Assembly: GCF_010378095.1 (NCBI RefSeq)
Contig: NZ_WNJL01000022.1
Location: 136,096-200,095 of the forward strand
DNA from: Acidithiobacillus ferrianus
GTDB lineage: Bacteria > Pseudomonadota > Gammaproteobacteria > Acidithiobacillales > Acidithiobacillaceae
Direction of reading: 5' to 3'
Length of the DNA stretch: 64,000 bases
The notes under the pieces were generated by a model. It searched no databases, was not told where the DNA came from, and saw only the letters and a program-made list of their open reading frames with translations. Positions 2,686 to 63,641 of the stretch are shown in pieces (position 1 is the first letter of the stretch; each line of letters opens with the position of its first letter). The translations under genes were made by a program, and so were the position numbers.

Positions 2686-3651
2686 CTAGCCCTTTGTCGC
2701 GGTATTCAAGGGCAGGGGATAGGGCAGTTGTTCCAGGGTCAGGGGCGTACCATCCAGCGCTCCGGCAGTCAGTGCCTCTCCGGCGTTGGCGGCGCGCAAG
2801 AGCGCCAGGGCCCCAAAGCCTCCCTGGGGATCGGGTGCCGCATTGATGACCATGCCAATGCTCTGCTCACCCATGCTTGCCGCAAAGATTTCCTCTCCCG
2901 CATTCAGGGGTTGCTGCGCCGCGACGCGGTAAGTCTGGTTCTTGAGTTTACCGAGATAGTGGGAACGGGCGACAATCTCCTGACCTGGGTAACAACCCTT
3001 TTTAAAATTGATGCCGCCCAGCACCTCCAGATTCAGTTCCTGAGGGATGATTTTTTCCGTGGTGGTGCTGCTGACCATGCCGACGCCGGCCCGGATGGCT
3101 TGCAGGCGCCAGTCCTCCGCGGTTCCGGCGCGGGCGCCAGCCGCCACGAGGGCCGCCGTGAGTACGTCCACCCGCGAGGCGGGCAGGAGGATCTGGAAGA
3201 TCTCCGCATTGATCCAGGGCAAACGGGTGATGATCATGCCTTCCTGCAGCATCCCGTCGTTGCCGAGTGCCGGCGGTGTCACGCCGATGACACGGCCCAG
3301 CAGTTCGCCGCTGCCGTTCCCCGAGACGGCAAGCAACACGAATTCGGGATCTCCCCGCTCTATTTCGAGCTTGGCCATCATGCGGAACTTGCGGAGTCGG
3401 TCGATGACCGGATCCACGAGGTCCGCGGACAGGCTGAGCCAGAAACCCGAATCATCGCGCTGCACATAAAAGTTGGCGATCATCCGCCCTTTGGCGGTGC
3501 TGTAGCTGCTCCATTGGCCGCCGCCTCTGGTCAGGGCACGCAGATCGTTGGAGAATTGACTCTGGAGGAATGTTTCGGCATCCGCGCCATGGGCGCGGAT
3601 CAGTCCGAGTTCCGTGCACAGGGGAATGAAGGTAATGACGGCTGAAGACAT
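2686..3651 (-). CDS. ygfZ: YgfZ-type folate-binding iron-sulfur/tRNA protein
   Basis: The 321-residue product belongs to the YgfZ/GcvT-like folate-binding family, which acts in maintenance or assembly of some iron-sulfur enzymes and affects tRNA methylthiolation (family knowledge). The diagnostic signature KGCYPGQE is present at residues 218-225, including the conserved cysteine. The N-terminal GcvT-like region has FLQSQFSNDL at 29-38 and GRMIAN at 55-60. The length is usual for the family. The start codon lies against the start of the divergent ygfX gene, the two ORFs overlapping by two bases at their 5' ends. The small membrane protein downstream shares its transcript. Confidence 0.93.
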   Translation of the reverse strand: MSSAVITFIPLCTELGLIRAHGADAETFLQSQFSNDLRALTRGGGQWSSYSTAKGRMIANFYVQRDDSGFWLSLSADLVDPVIDRLRKFRMMAKLEIERGDPEFVLLAVSGNGSGELLGRVIGVTPPALGNDGMLQEGMIITRLPWINAEIFQILLPASRVDVLTAALVAAGARAGTAEDWRLQAIRAGVGMVSSTTTEKIIPQELNLEVLGGINFKKGCYPGQEIVARSHYLGKLKNQTYRVAAQQPLNAGEEIFAASMGEQSIGMVINAAPDPQGGFGALALLRAANAGEALTAGALDGTPLTLEQLPYPLPLNTATKG

Positions 3652-4213
3652 GCGATTGAACTCCCGGTTGCCGAGGCGGCATGGTTCCGATCATACCCTC
3701 TTGGGCAGCGGTGACAAAGGGCTGCCGCCCCTTCCTCTCGGCAGCGCGCGGCGACAACGCGGGTTGCAAAGTATCCCCTGCGGGCTGGCCCTGCTTTGTG
3801 CGGTGTTCACCGGCGTGCAGGACTGGCGCTGGGGGCTGGCCTTGTGGACTGCGGTCTTCGCCTGGGTCCTGTGGCGCTGTCCCTGGTGGCGACATGCGGA
3901 GCAGCGCCTGCCGGAGACCCTGCGGATCGCGGCGGAAGGGCAGTTGCAGGTGCGCTTCGCCGATGGCCGGCTGCTGGATGTGATGCTTCGATCTCGCCCT
4001 TTCCTGCACCCGCGGCTAGGCGTCATTGCGCTTCGGGGTGAGGATGGCCGCGCTTATGTGTGTATCGCGCCCTACATGGCCGGGAGCGCCCTCTGGCGGC
4101 GCTGGCGACTCAGATTGCACCAGGAATGGGACGCAGAAACGGATCCGGCCGGTCCCGCTGGTGGATGCTATCCGCCGCGAAGTCCTCACGGCGCTGGGGA
4201 TGATCGCTATTAA
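3650..4213 (+). CDS. ygfX: YgfX/CptA-like membrane protein
   Basis: The 187-residue product fits the YgfX family. Two closely spaced hydrophobic segments at about residues 42-80 are followed by a small cytoplasmic domain (LRIAAEGQLQVRFADGR, then RPFLHPRLGVIALRGEDGR). In E. coli YgfX (CptA) is an inner-membrane protein encoded beside sdhE and implicated in division or cytoskeleton toxicity and in succinate dehydrogenase flavinylation. Here no sdhE is adjacent; the gene sits between ygfZ and nadB. The start at 3650 overlaps the ygfZ start on the other strand. The 3' end overlaps the convergent nadB 3' end by about 100 bases. The assignment rests on domain layout and neighbourhood, so it is moderately secure. 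Confidence 0.7.
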   Translation: MRLNSRLPRRHGSDHTLLGSGDKGLPPLPLGSARRQRGLQSIPCGLALLCAVFTGVQDWRWGLALWTAVFAWVLWRCPWWRHAEQRLPETLRIAAEGQLQVRFADGRLLDVMLRSRPFLHPRLGVIALRGEDGRAYVCIAPYMAGSALWRRWRLRLHQEWDAETDPAGPAGGCYPPRSPHGAGDDRY

Positions 4214-5702
4214 AATGGCATCCGCGGGATTCTTCCCGCAACAAGGCGGATCGGGTGAGGAGTGCCGCGCACAGGCGCAGATTGCGCAATTCCTGATAAT
4301 ACCGGGGTCCCTGCACGGCATCGCCGATGCGGGTGGCCATCTCTTCCCAATTCGCGCTGGCCGCCCGCAGGTCCGCATCATTGCGGATGATCCCTGCCGC
4401 CCGCCACATGGTGGTCTGCAGCGCTTGGCGCAGGGTGCGGATCGCCGTTTCCGAGAGTGCGTTGGATGAGCGCGTCGACGTTGGCGCGGGTGGCGGGAGG
4501 GGTTTTTCGGGGAGCCGTGACCGTCCTCCCAGATCGGCGACGATACTGGCCGCCCCCACCACACATTCGAGCAGCGAATTGCTGGCGAGGCGATTGGCGC
4601 CGTGCAGACCGCTGGCGCTGACTTCGCCCGCCGCATAAAGCCCATCGATGCTGCTGCGTCCGGCCACATCCACCACCACGCCGCCGCAGGTGTAGTGCGC
4701 TGCCGGCACCACTGGAACCGGTTCCCGGGTCAGATCGTAGCCGTGCGCCCGGCAATGGGCGAAAATAGCCGGAAAGTGCCGCTGCACCTGCGCGCCCGGC
4801 TGGTGACTGATGTCCAGGGTGACATATTCGATCCGGTGCCTTTTCATCTCCGCGTCGATCGCGCGCGCCACGATGTCCCGTGGCGCCAGTTCGGCGCGGG
4901 GGTCGTAGCGCTCCAGAAAAGCGCTGCCATCGGGCAGGCGTAACAGCGCCCCTTCGCCGCGCAAGGCCTCGGAAAGTAAAAAGGGCGCGCTGCCCGGTTG
5001 GTAGAGCGTCGTCGGATGAAACTGAATGAACTCCAGATTGGCGATTTCCGCACCCGCGCGATAGGCCAGGGCGATCCCGTCCCCCGTAGCCACCAGCGGA
5101 TTACTGGTGTGGCGGTACAACTGACCCGCTCCACCGCTGGCGAGAATCACCGCCCGTGCCGTCCACAACTGCGGACGATCGTCCTCCGGGGCGAGTACCC
5201 AGGCACCGGCGCAGCGGTCGCCGCGCAACCAGAGGTCGCTGGCGAAGTGCGCTTCGGCGATCTGAATGGCGGGGTGGGCCCGGACCTGTTGCAGCAAGGT
5301 GCTTTCGATGGCATGGCCCGTGGTGTCGGCGCAGTGCAGAACCCGGCGCGCCCGGTGCCCGCCTTCTCGGGTGAGATGCCAGTTTCCGTCAGCGCGGCGA
5401 TCGAAAGGCACTCCCCAGTCGATCAGACGTCGGGCCGCGGCGGGACCCTGGCCAATGATGTGCCGGACGGCGTCGGGATGGCAAAGTCCCATGCCGGCTC
5501 CCAGGGTATCCTCGATATGCAGGGCGATGCTGTCGTGATCCTCGTCCATGACCGCGGCGACTCCGCCCTGCGCCCAGTCGCTGGCGGAGTCGCTGGCCCG
5601 ATCCTTGCTGACTATGGCCACCCGGCCGAATTGGCTCAGCCCCAAGGCGGTGCTGAGTCCGGCGGTGCCGGAGCCGATGATCAGAAAGTCGAAAGAAGGC
5701 AT
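4110..5702 (-). CDS. nadB: L-aspartate oxidase
   Basis: NadB oxidises L-aspartate to iminoaspartate using FAD, the first step of de novo NAD synthesis, in the cytoplasm. The 530-residue product begins with the dinucleotide-binding motif GSGTAG at residues 10-15. It contains DWAQGG, the substrate-site block EFIQFHPTTLY, the active-site region PAAHYTCGGV, and the FAD-binding GLHGANRLASNSLLE typical of the succinate dehydrogenase/aspartate oxidase family. The ATG at 5702 places the flavin motif at the usual distance. A frame reaching 5792 exists but overlaps the probable rpoE promoter. It diverges from rpoE. nadA and nadC are not in the window. Confidence 0.95.
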   Translation of the reverse strand: MPSFDFLIIGSGTAGLSTALGLSQFGRVAIVSKDRASDSASDWAQGGVAAVMDEDHDSIALHIEDTLGAGMGLCHPDAVRHIIGQGPAAARRLIDWGVPFDRRADGNWHLTREGGHRARRVLHCADTTGHAIESTLLQQVRAHPAIQIAEAHFASDLWLRGDRCAGAWVLAPEDDRPQLWTARAVILASGGAGQLYRHTSNPLVATGDGIALAYRAGAEIANLEFIQFHPTTLYQPGSAPFLLSEALRGEGALLRLPDGSAFLERYDPRAELAPRDIVARAIDAEMKRHRIEYVTLDISHQPGAQVQRHFPAIFAHCRAHGYDLTREPVPVVPAAHYTCGGVVVDVAGRSSIDGLYAAGEVSASGLHGANRLASNSLLECVVGAASIVADLGGRSRLPEKPLPPPAPTSTRSSNALSETAIRTLRQALQTTMWRAAGIIRNDADLRAASANWEEMATRIGDAVQGPRYYQELRNLRLCAALLTRSALLREESRGCHFNSDHPQRREDFAADSIHQRDRPDPFLRPIPGAI

Positions 5703-6447: not shown

Positions 6448-7115
6448 ACGATGAAACCAAAAAAGAACTGATGGCGTTCATGGAAGGCGAGTTGAGCGGG
6501 TTGCGCGCCAATCGCCTGGCCACACGTTTACAAAACGAACGAGGCTTGCGAGAAGCCTGGGAATCCCAGTACCGGATTTCCTTTCTCCTGCAGAATGACC
6601 GGGAAGGAAGCCTGCTCGCGTCGGCGGGTTTCGCGGACAGGGTGGCCCGGGAAATTGCGGGAGAGCCCAATATCCTCGCCCCGCAGAGCGCACAGCGTCG
6701 GAGCGTCGCGGGGGGCTTTTGGATCAAGGCGGGTTCTGTCGCCGCGGTGCTGATGGTATCGGTGAGCCTGGTGAGTTTTCTGTCCGACCATCCGGTCTCC
6801 GCCCCATCGTCTATCGCGGGCGATGCATCCGGGCATTACGCCCAGACCGCCATGCTCCGCGGGTTCTCGCCGCGTGGCGAGGTGTTTCATCTGCATTCGG
6901 TAGCCGACTTCATGCCGCCGTCCGGAGGGATGGATGTCCTCATTCAGCGGGACATCCAAAGACTCTGGATCCCTGGCGGTGGCAACTATCTCGCCGCCTC
7001 CTCCCAGGCTTCCTCTCCTGGCTATCCGGGTCAGGCCGGCCTGGAAAACACGGCCGCTACGTCAATGGCGGGGATCAGCACGGGTTCCATAGCTTTTCCC
7101 GCGGGTAATCCCTAA
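6444..7115 (+). CDS. rseA: Anti-sigma-E factor RseA/MucA
   Basis: A 223-residue single-pass membrane protein predicted to bind and inhibit RpoE. The cytoplasmic N-terminal domain (residues 1-70) has the RseA_N pattern: a conserved start near KKELMAFMEGELS, then YRISFLLQND. A membrane segment lies at about 95-112, followed by a periplasmic domain containing LRGFSPRGEVFHLHSVADFMPP, which resembles MucA/RseA C-terminal domains. The start codon overlaps the rpoE stop by four bases, suggesting coupled translation and a fixed sigma to anti-sigma ratio. Cleavage sites for DegS/RseP cannot be read from sequence. No rseB is present; the next gene is the protease. Confidence 0.88.
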   Translation: MNDETKKELMAFMEGELSGLRANRLATRLQNERGLREAWESQYRISFLLQNDREGSLLASAGFADRVAREIAGEPNILAPQSAQRRSVAGGFWIKAGSVAAVLMVSVSLVSFLSDHPVSAPSSIAGDASGHYAQTAMLRGFSPRGEVFHLHSVADFMPPSGGMDVLIQRDIQRLWIPGGGNYLAASSQASSPGYPGQAGLENTAATSMAGISTGSIAFPAGNP

Positions 7116-7252
7116 AATCACAATCGGTGGATTCGCGAGCAGCGTTCTTCCCTGTGGGGGGAGAACCAGTGACCGTTGCCAAATGCCGCGGTTACCGGGA
7201 TGATGGTTGGGGTTCCTATAAATATCGAATCGGATGGCGGGGAGGGAGTGTC

Positions 7253-8737
7253 TTGAAAAATCGTGTGCTGAGTAGACAGCGCCTGGCGTTGGCGCTTTGC
7301 GTGGGTTTGGGGCTCAGCATGGGGATGGCATCGCCCATTTGGGCGGGCACCACCAGCACCAGTGGCCAAGCTTTGGTCGGTTTGCCTGATTTTACGCCTA
7401 TCGTCAAACAATATGGCCCCGCGGTCGTCAATATCAGCACGACGGAGACGAAGGTGGCGCGTAATCCGAGTTCGCCCTTTCCGCCGAATTCTCCGCTGAA
7501 TCAGTTTTTCGCCCCGTTCTTTGGCACGCCGGGTGGCCCCGGTGGAGCGCCCGGTGCGGAGTCCGGCCAAAAATATCAGGTGCAGTCGCTGGGTTCCGGT
7601 TTTGTCGTCAGCCCCGATGGTTACATCGTGACGGCGGCGCATGTCGTGAAGGGGGCCCAGAAGATTATCGTCAGCCTCACGAATCATCAGCAATACACGG
7701 CGCATCTGGTTGGATTGTCGACGCGCATCGATGTGGCCCTCCTGAAAATTGACGCGAAAAATCTGCCGACGGTACAAATCGGTGATTCCGGCAAGTTGGA
7801 GGTCGGGCAATGGGTGCTGGCGGTGGGTTCGCCCTTTGGTTTTGAGAATAGCGTCACCCAGGGGGTGGTCAGCGCGACTTCCCGGCCTTTGCCCGATGAC
7901 CCCTATATCCCCTTCATCCAGACGGATGTGCCGATCAATCCGGGCAACTCCGGCGGACCGCTCTTTAACATGCGCGGACAGGTGATTGGCATCAACGACC
8001 AGATTTATACCAACAGTGGCGGCTACATGGGACTATCTTTCTCCATCCCGATCAATGTCGCCATGGATGCCGTGAAGCAACTGAAACTCCACCAGAAGGT
8101 GCACTTCGGCTGGCTCGGGGTCATGATCCAGGATGTCAGCATGGATCTTGCCAAGTCCTTCCATATGAAGGAGCCGGTGGGTGCCCTGGTATCGCAGGTG
8201 GTGCCCGGCGGGCCGGCGGCCAAGGCGGGCCTTCGTCCCGGGGATGTCATCGTTTCCTTCGATGGCCAGGCCATCTACAACTCGGGTCAGCTCCCGCCGC
8301 TGGTGGGGGCGTTACCCGCCGGTTTCAAGGCGAAAATGGGTATTATTCGAAAGGGTCAACCCATGACGCTCAACATCACGGTAGAGAGCCTGCCCAACGA
8401 TATGGAAAATACCGCGGCGGAATCGTCCCCGCCCAACGGCTCGATGCAAAAAGGCGAAATCAAGCGACTGAACGTGCAGGTGGGTCCGCTGACGGCGGAA
8501 GCGCGTAACCAACTCAAAGTGAACACCGGTGTTCTCGTCCTCGGCGTGGGCATGGGTCCTGCGGCGGAGGCCGGTATTCGTCCCGGAGACGTGATCCTGC
8601 AGGTGGCGCAACAGCGTGTCACCAGCACCGCGGATTTGCAGAAGCTGGTGGCGACGCTGCCTGCCGGACAGCCCATACCCGTACTGGTGCGGCGGGGCAT
8701 GGGGAGCTTTTACCTGGTGCTCACGCTACCGCATTGA
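7253..8737 (+). CDS. mucD: Periplasmic serine protease DegQ/MucD
   Basis: A 494-residue HtrA-family protease-chaperone. From a TTG start at 7253, preceded by GGGGAGGGAG, it has a positively charged start, a hydrophobic core and a signal peptide cut near ASPIWAG (about residue 31), so it is exported. The trypsin-like triad is visible: His130 in TAAHVV, Asp160 in RIDVALL and Ser233 in GNSGGPLF. Two PDZ domains follow, each with the AGLRPGDV or AGIRPGDV signature. It is the third gene of the rpoE-rseA-mucD unit and ends at a strong terminator. A longer frame from 7127 lacks a sensible leader. Expected role: degradation or refolding of damaged envelope proteins and negative control of RpoE. Confidence 0.93.
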   Translation: MKNRVLSRQRLALALCVGLGLSMGMASPIWAGTTSTSGQALVGLPDFTPIVKQYGPAVVNISTTETKVARNPSSPFPPNSPLNQFFAPFFGTPGGPGGAPGAESGQKYQVQSLGSGFVVSPDGYIVTAAHVVKGAQKIIVSLTNHQQYTAHLVGLSTRIDVALLKIDAKNLPTVQIGDSGKLEVGQWVLAVGSPFGFENSVTQGVVSATSRPLPDDPYIPFIQTDVPINPGNSGGPLFNMRGQVIGINDQIYTNSGGYMGLSFSIPINVAMDAVKQLKLHQKVHFGWLGVMIQDVSMDLAKSFHMKEPVGALVSQVVPGGPAAKAGLRPGDVIVSFDGQAIYNSGQLPPLVGALPAGFKAKMGIIRKGQPMTLNITVESLPNDMENTAAESSPPNGSMQKGEIKRLNVQVGPLTAEARNQLKVNTGVLVLGVGMGPAAEAGIRPGDVILQVAQQRVTSTADLQKLVATLPAGQPIPVLVRRGMGSFYLVLTLPH

Positions 8738-18740: not shown

Positions 18741-19105
18741 GGGGGCGACTCGGCTTCGACGTAGATCGCGAAGCCTTCGGTGCATGCAGAGCTGCGGTCC
18801 GCTCTTAAAACTGGTCGCAGATTCATAATTGCCAACGACAGCAATTACGCTCTCGCTGCTTAGGCAGTGAGCCCTCTGCCCGGATTTGTCTGTGGATCCG
18901 GAGCCGAAAGGCGCGCGGAGGGTCATGAAACACGGAATCGTGCGCACCTTAGTCTGCGGGATGTGTGCTAAATCAAAGCAGAATCGTCGTGGCGTCATCC
19001 TGTCTGTCGGAGGGCGGCGCGATTAAAGCCAATAGACAAACTATGCATGTAGATCCGGTGGTCTAGGTACTGCGGACGCGGGTTCGATTCCCGCCGCCTC
19101 CACCA
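18741..19105 (+). ncRNA. ssrA: Transfer-messenger RNA (tmRNA)
   Basis: tmRNA rescues stalled ribosomes and adds a degradation tag. The 5' end GGGGGCG pairs with the 3' CGCCTCC preceding ACCA, giving the acceptor stem of the tRNA-like domain. The 3' part carries a T-arm with GGTTCGATTCC. The tag frame starts at 18831 with GCC and reads ANDSNYALAA, ending at TAG 18861-18863. The size of 365 bases is normal and CCA is encoded. It sits downstream of ttcA, and its 3' end is a common integration target; an integrase remnant follows within 115 bases. Confidence 0.97.
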
Positions 19106-59042: not shown

Positions 59043-59374
59043 GGATGCTCCTTTTACGCGCATTTTGCCACAGGGGGCGGGGGGTGGGTAGCTTGGGGGG
59101 CGAGCCTCTTCCAATAAGAAATAGCGGTTTGGTGGTGCAGAATCACGGTTTTGTTGTGTAATGCTATGAACCGTTGTAGATTCTACGACCGAAGTGTGTA
59201 CTAACGATGCGGTTGGGGCGGGGGAAAGCCGGCTGGCCGTTGTCTGCGTCCGATAAAAATAGGATGCCATAAAAGTACATTGGGGGGTCAAATGGCTGTA
59301 TATGCTTGTTGTGAGCCGCCAGTAAAGAATTTAGGCGACGTGGGTAGTGTGGTATGTATGCTGCCTAAATTATG
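59043..59374. other. Upstream region of apt and of the cassette array
   Basis: About 330 bases with no convincing gene. It must include the leftward apt promoter and may include a rightward promoter for the cassettes. No integron integrase gene is present. The last bases, CCTAAATTATG before TT at 59375, slightly resemble an attI or attC core site. Confidence 0.4.
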
Positions 59375-59551
59375 TTCGCGGGCGCTGTGCGCCCGCGAAC
59401 GGGGCGCGAGTGTCGAACATCGGGGCGTTGGGCGCACAGCGCCCGCGAACCCCTCGTTCGAGCGGACACCGCTACGCGGCTTCGCCCGCGTGAGCCTCCG
59501 CGCACTCCGTGCCCTCCGGCCTTACGCGGGTGCCGCACAACTCGCGCCCCG
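59375..59551. repeat. 177-bp mini-cassette, copy 1
   Basis: It begins TTCGCGGGCG and ends GCGCCCCG, immediately before TTAG, so both edges fall at the G|TT recombination point of integron core sites. It opens with a palindrome (TTCGCGGGCG / CGCCCGCGAA). GGGGCGCGAGT near the start is complementary to ACTCGCGCCCC at the end, which would fold into one long attC-like stem. No ORF with a start signal is contained. Confidence 0.85.
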
Positions 59552-59573
59552 TTAGATTTCTTTACGACTCGAA

Positions 59574-60422
59574 ATGACTATGGACTGGTTTATCAGATTT
59601 GCCCTTGGCCTACCCGCAAGAGTTGAAGATGCGGCTGCTTTGCGGAAGGCTCTACCAGAGTTGGAAAGCCGAGATTTTCGATTACAGCATAGGCGCTATT
59701 TCTGGCCCTTCCATCCAGACTTCGACACTAACGAGGAGCTACTTGAAGCCCTTCGACGTTGGGTTGCTGAAGTTGAAACTCCGGATGATTTTTGGCCCTC
59801 CGAATATCGCAATTGTCCATCGAATAATTGCCCACTTCGAAGCAACCAAGCCAAAGCAAACAGAGATGATGGGCTCTCTATCGCGCGGTTCATGGTGGCT
59901 GCCGGCGGACCAAAAGCCAAGCCGCCTAGAGACACATTTCTAGATTTGGTTAAACGCACACACCCCGAAAATGACCCACCGCGAGAGGTGATTCTGACTG
60001 ACCCATACATATACTCCGACGTCAGCGAAGATGGTCATGAAGGCGGTTTTTCCAACCTTGTTGCCTATCTTGAAGCACTTGGAATACCTGCCGATGACTC
60101 TTTCACCCTCCGTATGACCCCATCACCAAAGCGCGGGACTGTGACCGCGAAGAAGAACTTGCATCGCTATCTCAGGACCAAGTTCAAGAACATTCAGCTT
60201 AAGGATTACTCCCCTCAACTCAAGTTCCATGACAGGTTTTATGTCGTTCGCCATCGCACTGGAAAAATCAAGGGTGTATTCGGGCCGTCGATAAATGGCC
60301 TTACCTCAGATGCCATTGTGCTTATGGGTGATATGCTGGTTCGGATGAACAGCAATCTAACCTCTCATTCCACCGGACGCTGCGCGATAAAGCCGCGTAG
60401 CGCCGGTGAATTCAAACGTTAG
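59574..60422 (+). CDS. Cassette gene, possible PLD-like phosphodiesterase
   Basis: A 282-residue protein in the first ORF cassette. I do not recognise a named family. TDPYIY at 142-147 and FHDRFYVV with His219-Asp220, followed by GPSINGLTSDA at 237-247, resemble the second half of phospholipase-D-like domains seen in some bacterial conflict proteins. A full HxK motif is not present. The last 20 or so residues are translated attC sequence, and the stop TAG is part of the core site GTTAG. The start may be 59574 or the in-frame ATG at 59580. Base composition is lower in GC than the chromosome core, as expected for a cassette. Confidence 0.6.
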   Translation: MTMDWFIRFALGLPARVEDAAALRKALPELESRDFRLQHRRYFWPFHPDFDTNEELLEALRRWVAEVETPDDFWPSEYRNCPSNNCPLRSNQAKANRDDGLSIARFMVAAGGPKAKPPRDTFLDLVKRTHPENDPPREVILTDPYIYSDVSEDGHEGGFSNLVAYLEALGIPADDSFTLRMTPSPKRGTVTAKKNLHRYLRTKFKNIQLKDYSPQLKFHDRFYVVRHRTGKIKGVFGPSINGLTSDAIVLMGDMLVRMNSNLTSHSTGRCAIKPRSAGEFKR

Positions 60423-60424
60423 GG
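60355..60424 (+). repeat. attC-like site 1
   Basis: Begins with ATCTAAC (RYYYAAC form) and ends at GTTAGGG. Between them CACCGG (60371-60376) pairs with CCGGTG (60403-60408) and the flanking CGCTGCGCG with its partner, giving the usual extended hairpin. It terminates the first ORF cassette. Confidence 0.75.
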
Positions 60425-60434
60425 CTCAGTCGCT

Positions 60435-61562
60435 ATGCCACCATCCGTAGCCGGGTACACATGGGAAATATCGGATTCCCCATACCCTTCTCAATTTCTT
60501 TCTGGCACAAGGGAGTTCGGGGCGGAAAACCCTTGTCTTCTGATAGACCAATATTCAGGCAAGCGACCTGCGGTACTCAACAAGGAGTTCTTTGAGCGCG
60601 GCAAAATTCAGTTTGGCCTATATCCAAGCGCCCTCCTAGATTCAAACTTGGCCAATCAGGTTCATGCGGTCGCTAATGGTGGGAAAGTGAATGACGGCTT
60701 TGAATCATTACTCAGATTCTTGACCGAAAAGAGATGGGACTTCAGTCTCTACTTCTATTACGTTGAGCACTTCTGCAAGGCGAGAACACATGACGATTTC
60801 GTGAACAATGCCGTGGCAAGAACACGAGCGTTGCTGGCCCTACACTCGATGGATGAATCGGAATTCCTTAACTCTGGAAGAGTGGTACCTAACCCTGAAG
60901 CAGTTCAGCATTACCTCGACGGATCAGGAGTGTTTGATCTAGATGAGGCTGCATCGCGACGAGTTGAAGAGTTCTGCTCACTCCATTCTCGGCGAGATAC
61001 GCTTAATCGAATTGAAGCAATCGAAGTCGCGCTGATTAGGATGTTTTTGCTGCGCCGTATAGAAATGCCAAAGGCCACCCCGCTGAAGCAGCACGAAGCG
61101 TTCCTTACATTTCTCGAACGCGATCTCGGGGCCATATTGGCTCGTGAATCGCATTTGGCACTCCATTATTTCTACGACCAAGCGGGGAGTCTTCTTGGAA
61201 TTCAGCCCAACACCCCGATAGACCGAGCGCTCGCAACCATCACGTCAACGACTTGGGACATGTACTTTCTTCGAATGCCTGAGTTGTTTTTCTCTGGCTC
61301 GCCTACAGAGATGTGCTTGTCTTTCATCGCAACCCAGGAGAAGCAGCTCGGACGTCTCGCCCGCCTGTTTTCAGTTGAATCGATTATTGGCACACCGGAA
61401 GGCGATCTGTTGCCCGTCATAGGCTACGCGATGCACGAACTTCCAAACGAGGCAAAAAGCTCGCCACCACCTGTACGGCCACCACATAGGGGGCGGAAGA
61501 CAGTGCCGGTCGGACTAAGAGATGCGATGGTCAACGAATTGCGAAGGGTGCTGCCGAAATGA
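60435..61562 (+). CDS. Cassette gene of unknown function
   Basis: A 375-residue soluble protein without membrane segments or signal peptide. No motif identifies it. Features: an N-terminal part with CLLIDQYSGKRPAVLN and a conserved-looking FGLYPSALLDSNLANQ; a long helical middle (residues 120-330) with RIEAIEVALIRMFLLRRIEM; and a late TTWDMYFLRMPELFF. Acidic residues at the ends of hydrophobic strands could suit a PIN-like or other metal nuclease, but this is only a guess. It starts ten bases after the preceding attC core and ends just before the next attC. Confidence 0.65.
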   Translation: MPPSVAGYTWEISDSPYPSQFLSGTREFGAENPCLLIDQYSGKRPAVLNKEFFERGKIQFGLYPSALLDSNLANQVHAVANGGKVNDGFESLLRFLTEKRWDFSLYFYYVEHFCKARTHDDFVNNAVARTRALLALHSMDESEFLNSGRVVPNPEAVQHYLDGSGVFDLDEAASRRVEEFCSLHSRRDTLNRIEAIEVALIRMFLLRRIEMPKATPLKQHEAFLTFLERDLGAILARESHLALHYFYDQAGSLLGIQPNTPIDRALATITSTTWDMYFLRMPELFFSGSPTEMCLSFIATQEKQLGRLARLFSVESIIGTPEGDLLPVIGYAMHELPNEAKSSPPPVRPPHRGRKTVPVGLRDAMVNELRRVLPK

Positions 61563-61563
61563 G

Positions 61564-61633
61564 ACCTAACCTTGTGGTCAACACGGACCTTGCGCATAAA
61601 GCCGTGCAAGGCCGGTTACCTTGAACGTTATGC
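61564..61633 (+). repeat. attC-like site 2
   Basis: ACCTAAC at 61564-61570 and GTTATGC at 61627-61633 are the outer core sites. The interior carries ACCTTGC and GCAAGGC, which can pair. It closes the cassette of the 375-residue unknown protein. Confidence 0.75.
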
Positions 61634-61658
61634 ACCCATTATCAGATAGGAGTCTTTT

Positions 61659-62072
61659 ATGAATGCAAAGTATTCTGGGCAGTGTCTTTGTGGGGAAATC
61701 CGCTATTCAGTTGATATTGAGCCAGTGTTTACTGGAAATTGTCATTGCAAAGGCTGTCAAAGATCATCAGGCAGTGCATTCATTCCAGCGATGATTTTTC
61801 CTGAAAAAGATGTTGTCGTTTCAGGCGACGTGAAATATTTCGAGTCTCAAGCAGACAGCGGATATATGCACAAAAGAGGCTTCTGCTCGAATTGTGGTTC
61901 TCAATTGTTCGCTCGGTTCAGCAATATGCCAGAAATGCTGGGTATAAAGGCTGGAACCTTAAATGACTCATCGAATTATGTTCCAAAGTTGGATTTCTAT
62001 GTAGGTAGTGCTGCACCTTGGGACTTTATGAACCCAGAGCTACCTAAAAAGCAAGGGGCAGCACAAAGCTAA
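61659..62072 (+). CDS. GFA-family zinc protein, cassette-borne (first)
   Basis: A 137-residue protein of the GFA family (named after glutathione-dependent formaldehyde-activating enzyme; the fold is shared with CENP-V). Cysteine sets for two zinc sites are visible: CLCGEIRY, NCHCKGCQRSSG and FCSNCGSQLF. Most family members have no proven substrate. AGGAG lies upstream of the ATG. Its TAA stop is inside the downstream attC core. The neighbouring cassette encodes a second, clearly different GFA protein. Confidence 0.88.
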   Translation: MNAKYSGQCLCGEIRYSVDIEPVFTGNCHCKGCQRSSGSAFIPAMIFPEKDVVVSGDVKYFESQADSGYMHKRGFCSNCGSQLFARFSNMPEMLGIKAGTLNDSSNYVPKLDFYVGSAAPWDFMNPELPKKQGAAQS

Positions 62073-62106
62073 CGATATTGCATAACAATTAATTCAAGCG
62101 TTTGGG
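62067..62106 (+). repeat. attC-like site 3, short
   Basis: AGCTAAC at 62067-62073 and GTTTGGG at 62100-62106 bracket only about 26 bases, including CATAACAATTAATTCAAGC, which resembles one arm of a normal attC. It is shorter than usual and may be a truncated site. Confidence 0.5.
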
Positions 62107-62114
62107 ATACAAAG

Positions 62115-62513
62115 ATGCTTCATGGCAGTTGCCTCTGCGGGGGCGTTAAATACGAAATTTCCGGCGAGTTATCTGGCGCGTTGAACTGTCATTGCTCGAT
62201 ATGCCGCAAGGCTCATGGTGCTGCGTTTCGTAGTCGAGCCAGTGTGGATGTCTCCGATTTCAGGTGGGTGCAAGGCGAGGAACTTGTCACGTCCTTTGAA
62301 TCTTCACCAGGTAACCATCGTGGGTTCTGTCGTGTGTGCGGCTCCCCGCTTCTGAGCCACTTCGATCAAAATCCTTCGGTGTTTGGCTTGCCGCTCGGCG
62401 CTCTTGACGACGACCCAAAGGTAAAACCAATGCTTCATGCTTTCGTGGGCAGCAAGGCTCCGTGGCACGATATAACTGACAACCTGCCACAATTTCAGGA
62501 GCTGCCGAAATGA
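62115..62513 (+). CDS. GFA-family zinc protein, cassette-borne (second)
   Basis: A 132-residue GFA protein: CLCGGVKYEI, LNCHCSICRKAHGAAF and FCRVCGSPLL supply the zinc cysteines. It differs from the first GFA protein over most of its length, so the two were probably captured separately rather than duplicated in place. The start lies eight bases past the preceding core site, leaving little room for a promoter, so expression depends on reading from upstream. Confidence 0.88.
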   Translation: MLHGSCLCGGVKYEISGELSGALNCHCSICRKAHGAAFRSRASVDVSDFRWVQGEELVTSFESSPGNHRGFCRVCGSPLLSHFDQNPSVFGLPLGALDDDPKVKPMLHAFVGSKAPWHDITDNLPQFQELPK

Positions 62514-62520
62514 AGAAGCT

Positions 62521-62581
62521 CCCTAACCCTACGCTCAAGCGGGACGGCGTCAAGCCGCCGCCCCTTAGCTCCACGTTCGCG
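62521..62581 (+). repeat. attC-like site 4
   Basis: CCCTAAC at 62521, CTCAAGCGGGACGGCG with its partner CGCCGCCCCTTAGC, and CACGTT at 62572-62577. The 177-bp unit begins exactly at the TT of this GTT, so the right half of the core is supplied by the unit. Confidence 0.75.
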
Positions 62582-62752
62582 GGCGCTGTGCGCCCGCGAA
62601 CGGGGCGCGAGTGTCGAACATCGGGGCGTTGGGCGCATAGCGCCCGCGAACCCCTCGTTCGAGCGGACACCGCTACGCGGCTTCGCCCGCGTGAGCCTCC
62701 GCGCACTCCGTGCCCTCCGGCCTTACGCGGGTGCCGCACAACTCGCGCCCCG
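62576..62752. repeat. 177-bp mini-cassette, copy 2
   Basis: Same length and edges as copy 1, with one base difference seen (C to T in GGGCGCATAGCGC). It lies between attC-like site 4 and GTTGGGC, a perfect GTTRRRY core, at 62752-62758. It precedes the YdeI-family cassette. Confidence 0.88.
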
Positions 62753-62785
62753 TTGGGCGTCTATCTATTTCAGAGTGAATCGATA

Positions 62786-63379
62786 ATGAAGTCTCAATCC
62801 AAATCCACTACTGAGTTACCGTTACATCACTTTGAGCGGCAACAGGACTGGTCTACTTGGCTAAATGAAAATCACGCCACATCACCCGGCGTGTGGTTGC
62901 AACTCGCAAAAAAGGGAGCCGATACACCGTCAGTTTCATACGAGGAAGCCATCGAAATTGCGCTTTGCTTTGGATGGATAGATGGGCAAAAGCAAACCCA
63001 CAGCGAGCAATTCTGGCTCCAGAAATTTACTCGGCGCTCGGAAAAAAGTGTGTGGTCGAAGATCAATAAGGACAAGGCGCTTGCTCTAGTCAAAGCAGGA
63101 AGCATGAAGCCAGCCGGACTCAAAGAGATTGAGCGTGCGAAAATCGACGGGCGCTGGGACGCTGCGTATGACTCGGCCAGCAAGGCAACTGTACCAAGTG
63201 ATTTTCAGTCCGCGCTGGATAGTAATGTGCGAGCAAAAGACTTCTTCGAAACACTCGATAGTCGGAACCGATACGCTGTTCTGTTCAGGATTCAAACTGC
63301 CAAGAAGGCTGAAACGCGCGCCAAGAAAATTTCACAGTTTGTGCTAATGCTGGAACGACACGAGAAGGTGCACCCATGA
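62786..63379 (+). CDS. YdeI/OmdA-family protein, cassette-borne
   Basis: A 197-residue protein of the YdeI (OmdA-like) family, with the typical opening WSTWLNENHATSPGVWLQLAKK, EEAIEIALCFGWIDGQ, and FTRRSEKSVWSKIN. The C-terminal helix rich in Lys and Arg (IQTAKKAETRAKKI) is also usual. In other bacteria members are linked to bacteriocin or peptide resistance, but biochemistry is unclear. ATG 62786 gives the family start. An in-frame open stretch extends back through the 177-bp unit to 62510 and is probably not translated. Confidence 0.85.
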   Translation: MKSQSKSTTELPLHHFERQQDWSTWLNENHATSPGVWLQLAKKGADTPSVSYEEAIEIALCFGWIDGQKQTHSEQFWLQKFTRRSEKSVWSKINKDKALALVKAGSMKPAGLKEIERAKIDGRWDAAYDSASKATVPSDFQSALDSNVRAKDFFETLDSRNRYAVLFRIQTAKKAETRAKKISQFVLMLERHEKVHP

Positions 63380-63407
63380 CAAATTCATGTGCTCTTGCTA
63401 GAGAAAT

Positions 63408-63470
63408 GCCCAACCCAGCGTTCGAGCGGGACGCCGCAAAAGCGCGGCGCCCCTCAACTTTGCGTTCGCG
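63408..63470 (+). repeat. attC-like site 5
   Basis: A near-ideal attC: GCCCAAC at 63408-63414, GCGTTCGAGCGGGACGCCGC, loop AAAA, GCGCGGCGCCCCTCAAC, and GCGTT at 63462-63466. Copy 3 of the 177-bp unit begins at the TT of this core. Confidence 0.85.
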
Positions 63471-63641
63471 GGCGCTGCGCGCCCGCGAACGGGGCGCGAG
63501 TGTCGAACATCGGGGCGTTGGGCGCACAGCGCCCGCGAACCCCTCGTTCGAGCGGACACCGCTACGCGGCTTCGCCCGCGTGAGCCTCCGCGCACTCCGT
63601 GCCCTCCGGCCTTACGCGGGTGCCGCACAACTCGCGCCCCG
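63465..63641. repeat. 177-bp mini-cassette, copy 3
   Basis: Same 177-bp length and edges; one base difference from copy 1 (T to C in the palindrome loop, CGCTGCGCGC). It is followed by GTTAGGC, a perfect GTTRRRY core, at 63641-63647, and is the last recognisable cassette of the window. Confidence 0.88.

Follow-up and report, generated by a model that had tools for sequence, protein, structure and literature searches.

A 177-bp open reading frame-less integron cassette, probably reduced to its recombination site, in Acidithiobacillus ferrianus and its relatives

The 64,000-nucleotide stretch of Acidithiobacillus ferrianus DNA analysed here (the window) is the right end of contig NZ_WNJL01000022.1 (C15 below), part of a 3.17-Mb draft genome in 90 contigs, and it carries three copies of a 177-bp unit within an array of integron cassettes. 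Comparison with related genomes makes it very probable that this unit is an integron cassette without an open reading frame (ORF), reduced to its recombination site and moved by the integron integrase IntI, between species too; it is most likely a hitch-hiker. An earlier note, made from the sequence of the window, had proposed a mobile mini-cassette that is nearly all attC hairpin and inserts at G|TT, a proposal that the comparison across genomes supports. The comparison set comprised 29 genomes of the family, that of A. ferrianus included, and a wider set of 57 relatives.

Copies, borders and fold of the unit

Sequence comparison agreed with the three 177-bp copies first described, copies 2 and 3 each lying one base from copy 1 (C>T at unit position 63 and T>C at position 14, respectively). 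Each copy starts with TT, ends with G and is flanked by G upstream and TT downstream (3/3), as the earlier note had read the borders; exact G|TT borders were also found for copies in A. sulfuriphilus CJ-2 (G017), A. sulfurivorans RW2 (G010) and Acidithiobacillus sp. KUB_Bin07 (G006) and for a shortened copy in A. ferriphilus DSM 100412 (G012). Copies 2 and 3 had been said to split the attC of the preceding cassette, which is correct in the sense usual for cassette insertion, where the TT of the upstream R' site becomes part of the incoming cassette. Copy 1 is preceded by an attI-like site, not by an attC. The description of the unit as ORF-less stands in that no gene-sized ORF with start and stop lies inside the 177 bp, but three of the six reading frames have no stop codon anywhere on the circle. 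No single frame is preserved among related copies, which measure 179 bp and about 127 bp.

Both complementary arms reported earlier exist, GGGGCGCGAGT at unit positions 27–37 and ACTCGCGCCCC at positions 166–176, but the first is not terminal: it is preceded by a 27-nt palindrome, GTTCGCGGGCGCTGTGCGCCCGCGAAC. The start of the unit, GTTCGCGGGCG, is complementary at 10/10 bases to its own R'' a few bases on, with a 3-nt loop where other cassettes hold their gene, and the 3' end of the unit is an attC half also used by ORF cassettes of Acidithiobacillus. The R'', L'', L' and R' boxes are hand assignments, made without an attC covariance model.

Folds of the unit plus 8 nt were compared with those of 200 shuffled sequences. 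The bottom-strand DNA fold was more stable than expected by chance (z = -6.04; 0/200 shuffles as stable); the top DNA strand was almost as stable, and the top-strand RNA fold gave z = -8.13 (0/200). As a circle, the unit folds into a rod whose R'/R'' end is closed by the 3-nt loop, leaving both ends capped. Two nested attC readings are available. The stem of the outer one is fully paired, with no unpaired spacer, and is the thermodynamically best fold. The inner one has ordinary R, spacer and L boxes and lies 3.6 kcal/mol above the best fold of the region; it keeps the unpaired spacer and the extrahelical bases, whereas the spacer is paired in the more stable outer fold. Because a paired spacer is reported to lower attC recombination, in the part of PMC2727003 available to us, the inner fold is favoured as the working site. 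The G017 copy keeps the outer pair 28–175 through a double change from G-C to A-T, while pair 39–163 is broken; this offers thin evidence for the outer stem.

Occurrence in relatives and the link to an integrase

Matches to the unit were found in 9/29 family genomes at E up to 0.001 and in 10/57 relatives, the tenth being a genome of another family (G029) that matches in the attC half only. Besides the four relatives named above, of which G006 is a metagenome-assembled genome, a close relative of the unit occurs in a further such genome, 'Proteobacteria bacterium' WY1.bin85 (G015). Full-length copies number three in the window genome and one each in G006, G010 and G017 (179 bp, 94%); near-full copies occur in G015 (positions 21–177) and G012 (without about 106–148), and G002, G011 and G014 gave partial matches only. 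Full and near-full copies all come from draft assemblies, two of these being titled as metagenome bins, and some contigs break off within the unit.

The G006 and G010 copies lie at an attI beside intI, with unit and intI on one contig, and the G017 copy lies inside an array. The first two are identical to each other (177/177) and two bases from copy 1, although the intI genes of their genomes share only 78.7% DNA identity and the cassettes next to them differ; the unit therefore appears to move separately from its platform. The near identity of the copies had been taken to imply recent amplification, which fits, but horizontal spread fits equally well.

The 27-nt start of the unit was found at nine places in 5/29 genomes. 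All nine follow the G of an attI, an attI-like site or a cassette end, and none lies outside an integron-type site, so that copies away from GTT cores, which the earlier note had named as evidence against a cassette, did not appear. Five follow attI or attI-like sites (contig C11, C15 copy 1, contig C23, G006 and G010), and four follow other cassettes (C15 copies 2 and 3, G012, and G017, whose neighbour was judged an attC by eye). In G011 and G015, other sequence follows the attI from the same base onward, which pins down the crossover point.

These results bear on the suggestion that the unit is a miniature inverted-repeat transposable element (MITE) or similar transposon that duplicates a GTT target and prefers integron sites. 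GTT flanks both sides of every copy, as a 3-bp duplication would give, and the near-identical copies are many. Yet all nine places among the 29 genomes are integron-type, and the attC half is common to ORF cassettes whose R'' matches their own start. The unit has no clear terminal inverted repeats, its ends being complementary at only 2/10 bases (5/10 without the TT and the last G). It gave no blastn match in plasmid or phage records, and one pattern had no match in viral contigs. A transposon origin is accordingly judged extremely improbable.

The window itself gave no match to IntI at 1e-5, and its last 10 kb gave none that was credible at E 10. The sole TIGR02249 match above cut-off in the genome is an intact intI on C23 (466.4 bits; cut-off 265). 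C23 starts inside a fourth copy of the unit, its first 108 nt corresponding, on the minus strand, to unit positions 108 to 1; a G|TT junction links this copy to the attI next to intI. The C23 intI shares 92.2% DNA identity with that of G006 and 79.5% with that of G010. Among the 29 genomes, IntI above cut-off is present in eight: 5/6 of those with a full or near-full unit and 3/23 of the others. At each of the three intI-linked copies, unit and array point away from intI, and the orientation of copy 1 at its attI-like site is the same.

It is very improbable that the multiple copies on C15 are partly an artefact of assembly. The genome is a 90-contig draft, C23 begins inside the unit and a G006 contig (C120) ends 10 nt into it; against this, copies 2 and 3 each have their own single-base change, all three copies have different neighbours, and two other genome assemblies place the unit at attI and intI together on a single contig.

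From the borders, orientation, neighbours and integrase, we infer that the unit is moved by IntI. The integrase encoded on C23 would recombine the folded bottom strand and free the unit as a small circle, which would then be inserted at attI, at attI-like sites in trans or at attC sites, and copies would pass between species. Several points weigh against this interpretation. Neither a circle nor a recombination event was observed, and the GTT target duplication of a transposon would give identical-looking borders. The best fold of the unit, the outer one, has the fully paired spacer reported to lower recombination (PMC2727003, as far as its available text goes), and within the array pairing between the R' downstream and either R'' of the unit hardly extends beyond GTT. 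G012, with its shortened unit, has no intI match at E 1e-60, and the draft state of the assemblies that hold full or near-full copies also counts here.

Truncated and fused forms were seen as well. On contig C28, about unit positions 59–177 are fused to flanking sequence. The 125-nt match there was considered as a shorter unit starting at 53, but the bases before about 59 belong to a flank common to A. ferriphilus locus L062, so a truncated unit is the better description. L062 itself holds, at 7447–7491, a 45-bp piece of the unit that starts at an internal G|TT (unit 82|83) and takes in the rest of the unit; it sits precisely between G and TT, with the end of an attC before it and TTAGGC after it. 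An origin of ORF cassettes through fusion of genes with the attC of the unit is not favoured: in three of three checked, R'' matched the cassette's own start at 7/8 bases and that of the unit at 4/8. Beyond these three, a unit-like attC is also present in the second cassette on C28, the first on C65 and cassettes of G011 and G014.

Other mobile sequences accompany cassettes in this genome. C28 (L018) carries at 2886–5280 a pair of tyrosine-recombinase ORFs, weakly IntI-like, plus further mobile-element-like coding sequence among its cassettes, and contig C30 (L019) has group II intron matches among cassettes at 416–488, 2362–2662, 3970–4138 and 6986–7280.

Sites without intI and the first position in arrays

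A 44-nt motif ending in CTAAATTAYG before TT, with no adjacent intI, was found on C15 and C11, on three G012 contigs (C31, C234 and C245), on G008 C70 and on G006 C120. Together with seven attI beside intI, which is intact in C23, G006, G010, G011 and G015 and damaged in G013 and G014, these make 14 sites, a biased sample rather than a full census. The 44-nt pattern misses the attI of G010, G011 and G015, which were found by another motif on intI loci; C28 is outside the 14 and was found solely through its unit match. First in line is the unit at four sites (C15, C23, G006 C194 and G010) and other sequence at eight; the remaining two have the first 10 nt of the unit before the contig end (G006 C120) and a 26-nt remnant (C11). 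In the A. ferrianus genome the unit comes first at 3/3 attI-motif sites (intact on C15 and, as far as seen, on C23; the remnant on C11) and is truncated at a fourth place, C28.

Sites were compared by BLAST alignment. At the C15 site and its counterpart on G012 C245 (site Y), the 1.5 kb upstream align at 84.9% identity, up to a point 2 nt short of the junction, whereas the 1502 nt downstream gave no BLAST match; in A. ferriphilus a different cassette occupies the site, and the similarity ends at G|TT. For G012 C234 and G006 C120 (site Z), the upstream identity is 94.3%, the alignment ends 29 nt short of the junction and G006 continues only 10 nt beyond it. C11, G012 C31 and G008 C70 (site X) are similar over only 115–228 nt upstream, without a downstream match, and may be non-orthologous loci. 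Because sites X and Y carry different cassettes in different genomes, intI-less sites may have been loaded in trans; alternatively, intI could have been lost from them after loading. A tentative extension, for which we see somewhat less than even chances, is that one chromosomal integrase serves several platforms in trans and that the attC-only unit is a selfish recombination site colonising attI-like sites. The intI-less sites may be the more novel part of these observations.

Arrays headed by such sites, with differing first cassettes at matching sites, are those at window positions 59331–59374 and at L075, L076, L079, L080, L082 and L085. Beside the damaged intI genes (L077 and L078; G013 C130 and G014 C1), other sequence still follows the attI at G|TT. 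On C11 (L022, 4941–5864), a DNA-invertase-like tyrosine recombinase ORF, divergent from the array, occupies the usual place of intI. It was considered as a lost or diverged intI and rejected, with a score of 49.7 against the IntI cut-off of 265; DNA-invertase models are closest (187 bits).

The frequent first position fits repeated release and reinsertion at attI; selection on how the unit affects expression would fit as well. The latter belongs to a rather unlikely alternative, in which selection maintains the unit, itself mobile as a cassette, for a regulatory role, be it as a very stable RNA leader or attenuator between the attI-side promoter and the next gene, as a promoter there or through a change in integrase expression. 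It would account for the first position at 4/14 attI or attI-like sites, with the 10-nt start and 26-nt remnant at two more, for the stability of the top-strand RNA (z = -8.13) and for 177 identical bases in two species despite diverged intI; ORF-less cassettes with promoter activity have also been published (PMC6557892 and PMC11014356, in the parts available). A consensus scan gave no promoter-like match within the unit, although in silico scans are weak evidence, and a section heading of PMC11014356, a source available in part, states that promoters in gene-less cassettes are not identifiable in silico. Scan totals were at shuffle level (promoters, 2 versus 3.0; terminators, 7 versus 5.8). 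Terminator-like matches include 62745–62760, spanning the end of copy 2 and the next cassette, and 59341–59367, in the attI-like site. The first position is, moreover, also the arrival point of new cassettes. Rfam at gathering scores matched only a transfer-messenger RNA gene in the window (18741–19105).

In the absence of any gene on the unit, proficiency in recombination is the likeliest reason for its success, with a hitch-hiker as the most likely function and a structured leader ranked second. As a side effect, the unit would perhaps act as such a leader between a cassette promoter and the next gene.

Array composition and comparison with known systems

The array on C15 runs from the attI-like site through unit copy 1, ORF cassettes 1 to 4, copy 2 and ORF cassette 5 to copy 3; no further cassette was seen by eye in the 359 bases between copy 3 and the contig end. 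Cassette starts were compared with R'' over ten bases per cassette, picked by eye, with copies 2 and 3 omitted as repeats. For the six distinct cassettes, own start and R'' agreed at 51/60 bases; the mean over all 720 pairings was 36.5, and only the true pairing reached 51. The start of GFA-family cassette 3 (window 61628–62075) also follows a unit-like attC in G011 (L039, from about 1594), and the cassette seems to be common to different species.

Table 1. Features of the cassette array at the right end of contig C15 (window coordinates)
Feature	Coordinates	Strand	Remarks
attI-like site (TTAGGCGACG...CCTAAATTATG), array head, no adjacent intI	59331..59374	+	motif common to attI beside intI and other intI-less sites
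Unit copy 1 (ORF-less, probably attC-only cassette)	59375..59551	+	177 bp
27-nt palindrome GTTCGCGGGCGCTGTGCGCCCGCGAAC: own R' start and outer R'', 3-nt loop between	59374..59400	+	its G is the base before the unit
Outer arm GGGGCGCGAGT, complement of 59540–59550	59401..59411	+	sequence
Inner R'' (CGCGAAC) of canonical-looking attC	59444..59450	+	assigned by hand
Inner L'' GTTCGAGCGG	59456..59465	+	assigned by hand
L' CCGCACAAC	59533..59541	+	assigned by hand
ORF cassette 1 (ORF 59574–60422, a few bases past the boundary; no Pfam match)	59552..60418	+	start/R'' 9/10
ORF cassette 2 (ORF 60435–61562; no Pfam match)	60419..61627	+	start/R'' 9/10
ORF cassette 3 (GFA family ORF 61659–62072), attC apparently shortened	61628..62100	+	start/R'' 8/10
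ORF cassette 4 (GFA family ORF 62115–62513)	62101..62575	+	start/R'' 7/10
Unit copy 2	62576..62752	+	177 bp
ORF cassette 5 (OmdA/YdeI-like ORF 62786–63379)	62753..63464	+	start/R'' 8/10
Unit copy 3; last cassette seen	63465..63641	+	177 bp; 359 bases before contig end

The unit is a natural recombination site that apparently moves cargo-free in several species, an indication that such sites need carry no gene in order to spread. It makes testable what besides a gene decides the spread of a cassette, and whether an integrase acts in trans on distant attI-like sites. It is also a very small case of cassette excision and, since the fold of lowest energy does not follow the published spacer rule, would serve as a test of the rules of attC structure.

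Integron integrases are mentioned in A. ferrooxidans IO-2C (PMC6736930, available in part). Among the matches listed, which cover part of the literature, no title dealt with the unit, with cassette arrays of Acidithiobacillus or with arrays headed by attI sites that lack intI. Secondary, attI-like sites of integron integrases lie outside the integron and are used at a G|TT-type point (PMC10127599, in the text available); the sites described here share such a point outside an integron, but the published ones are short chance matches, whereas these resemble the attI of the genus over about 44 nt and head arrays. In the group IIC-attC intron model of cassette formation, isolated gene-free attC sites are joined to genes (PMC7923331 and PMC3053210, from the portions available). 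The unit is likewise an attC without a gene, and group II introns occur among cassettes on C30; on the other hand, the unit contains no intron, and three ORF cassettes with a unit-like attC were not simply built by adding the unit.

The earlier view of the mini-cassette as unusual needs to be toned down, because ORF-less cassettes have been published, some with promoters (PMC8876359, PMC6557892 and PMC11014356; this and what follows reflect the available parts of these sources). Like the unit, the ORF-less cassettes of Treponema and Vibrio have an attC and no gene-sized ORF and can stand first in an array. The Vibrio set measures 491–666 bp, with an attC of 101–127 bp and 335–515 bp of other sequence left, in contrast to a unit of 177 bp with next to nothing outside its attC. 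ORF-less cassettes were first in line in 1/42 and 1/5 cases (PMC6557892), against 5/14 sites, in a biased sample, for the unit intact or cut by a contig end. What is new here is that the unit is far smaller than the Vibrio set, forms a rod predicted to be capped at both ends and is often first in line.

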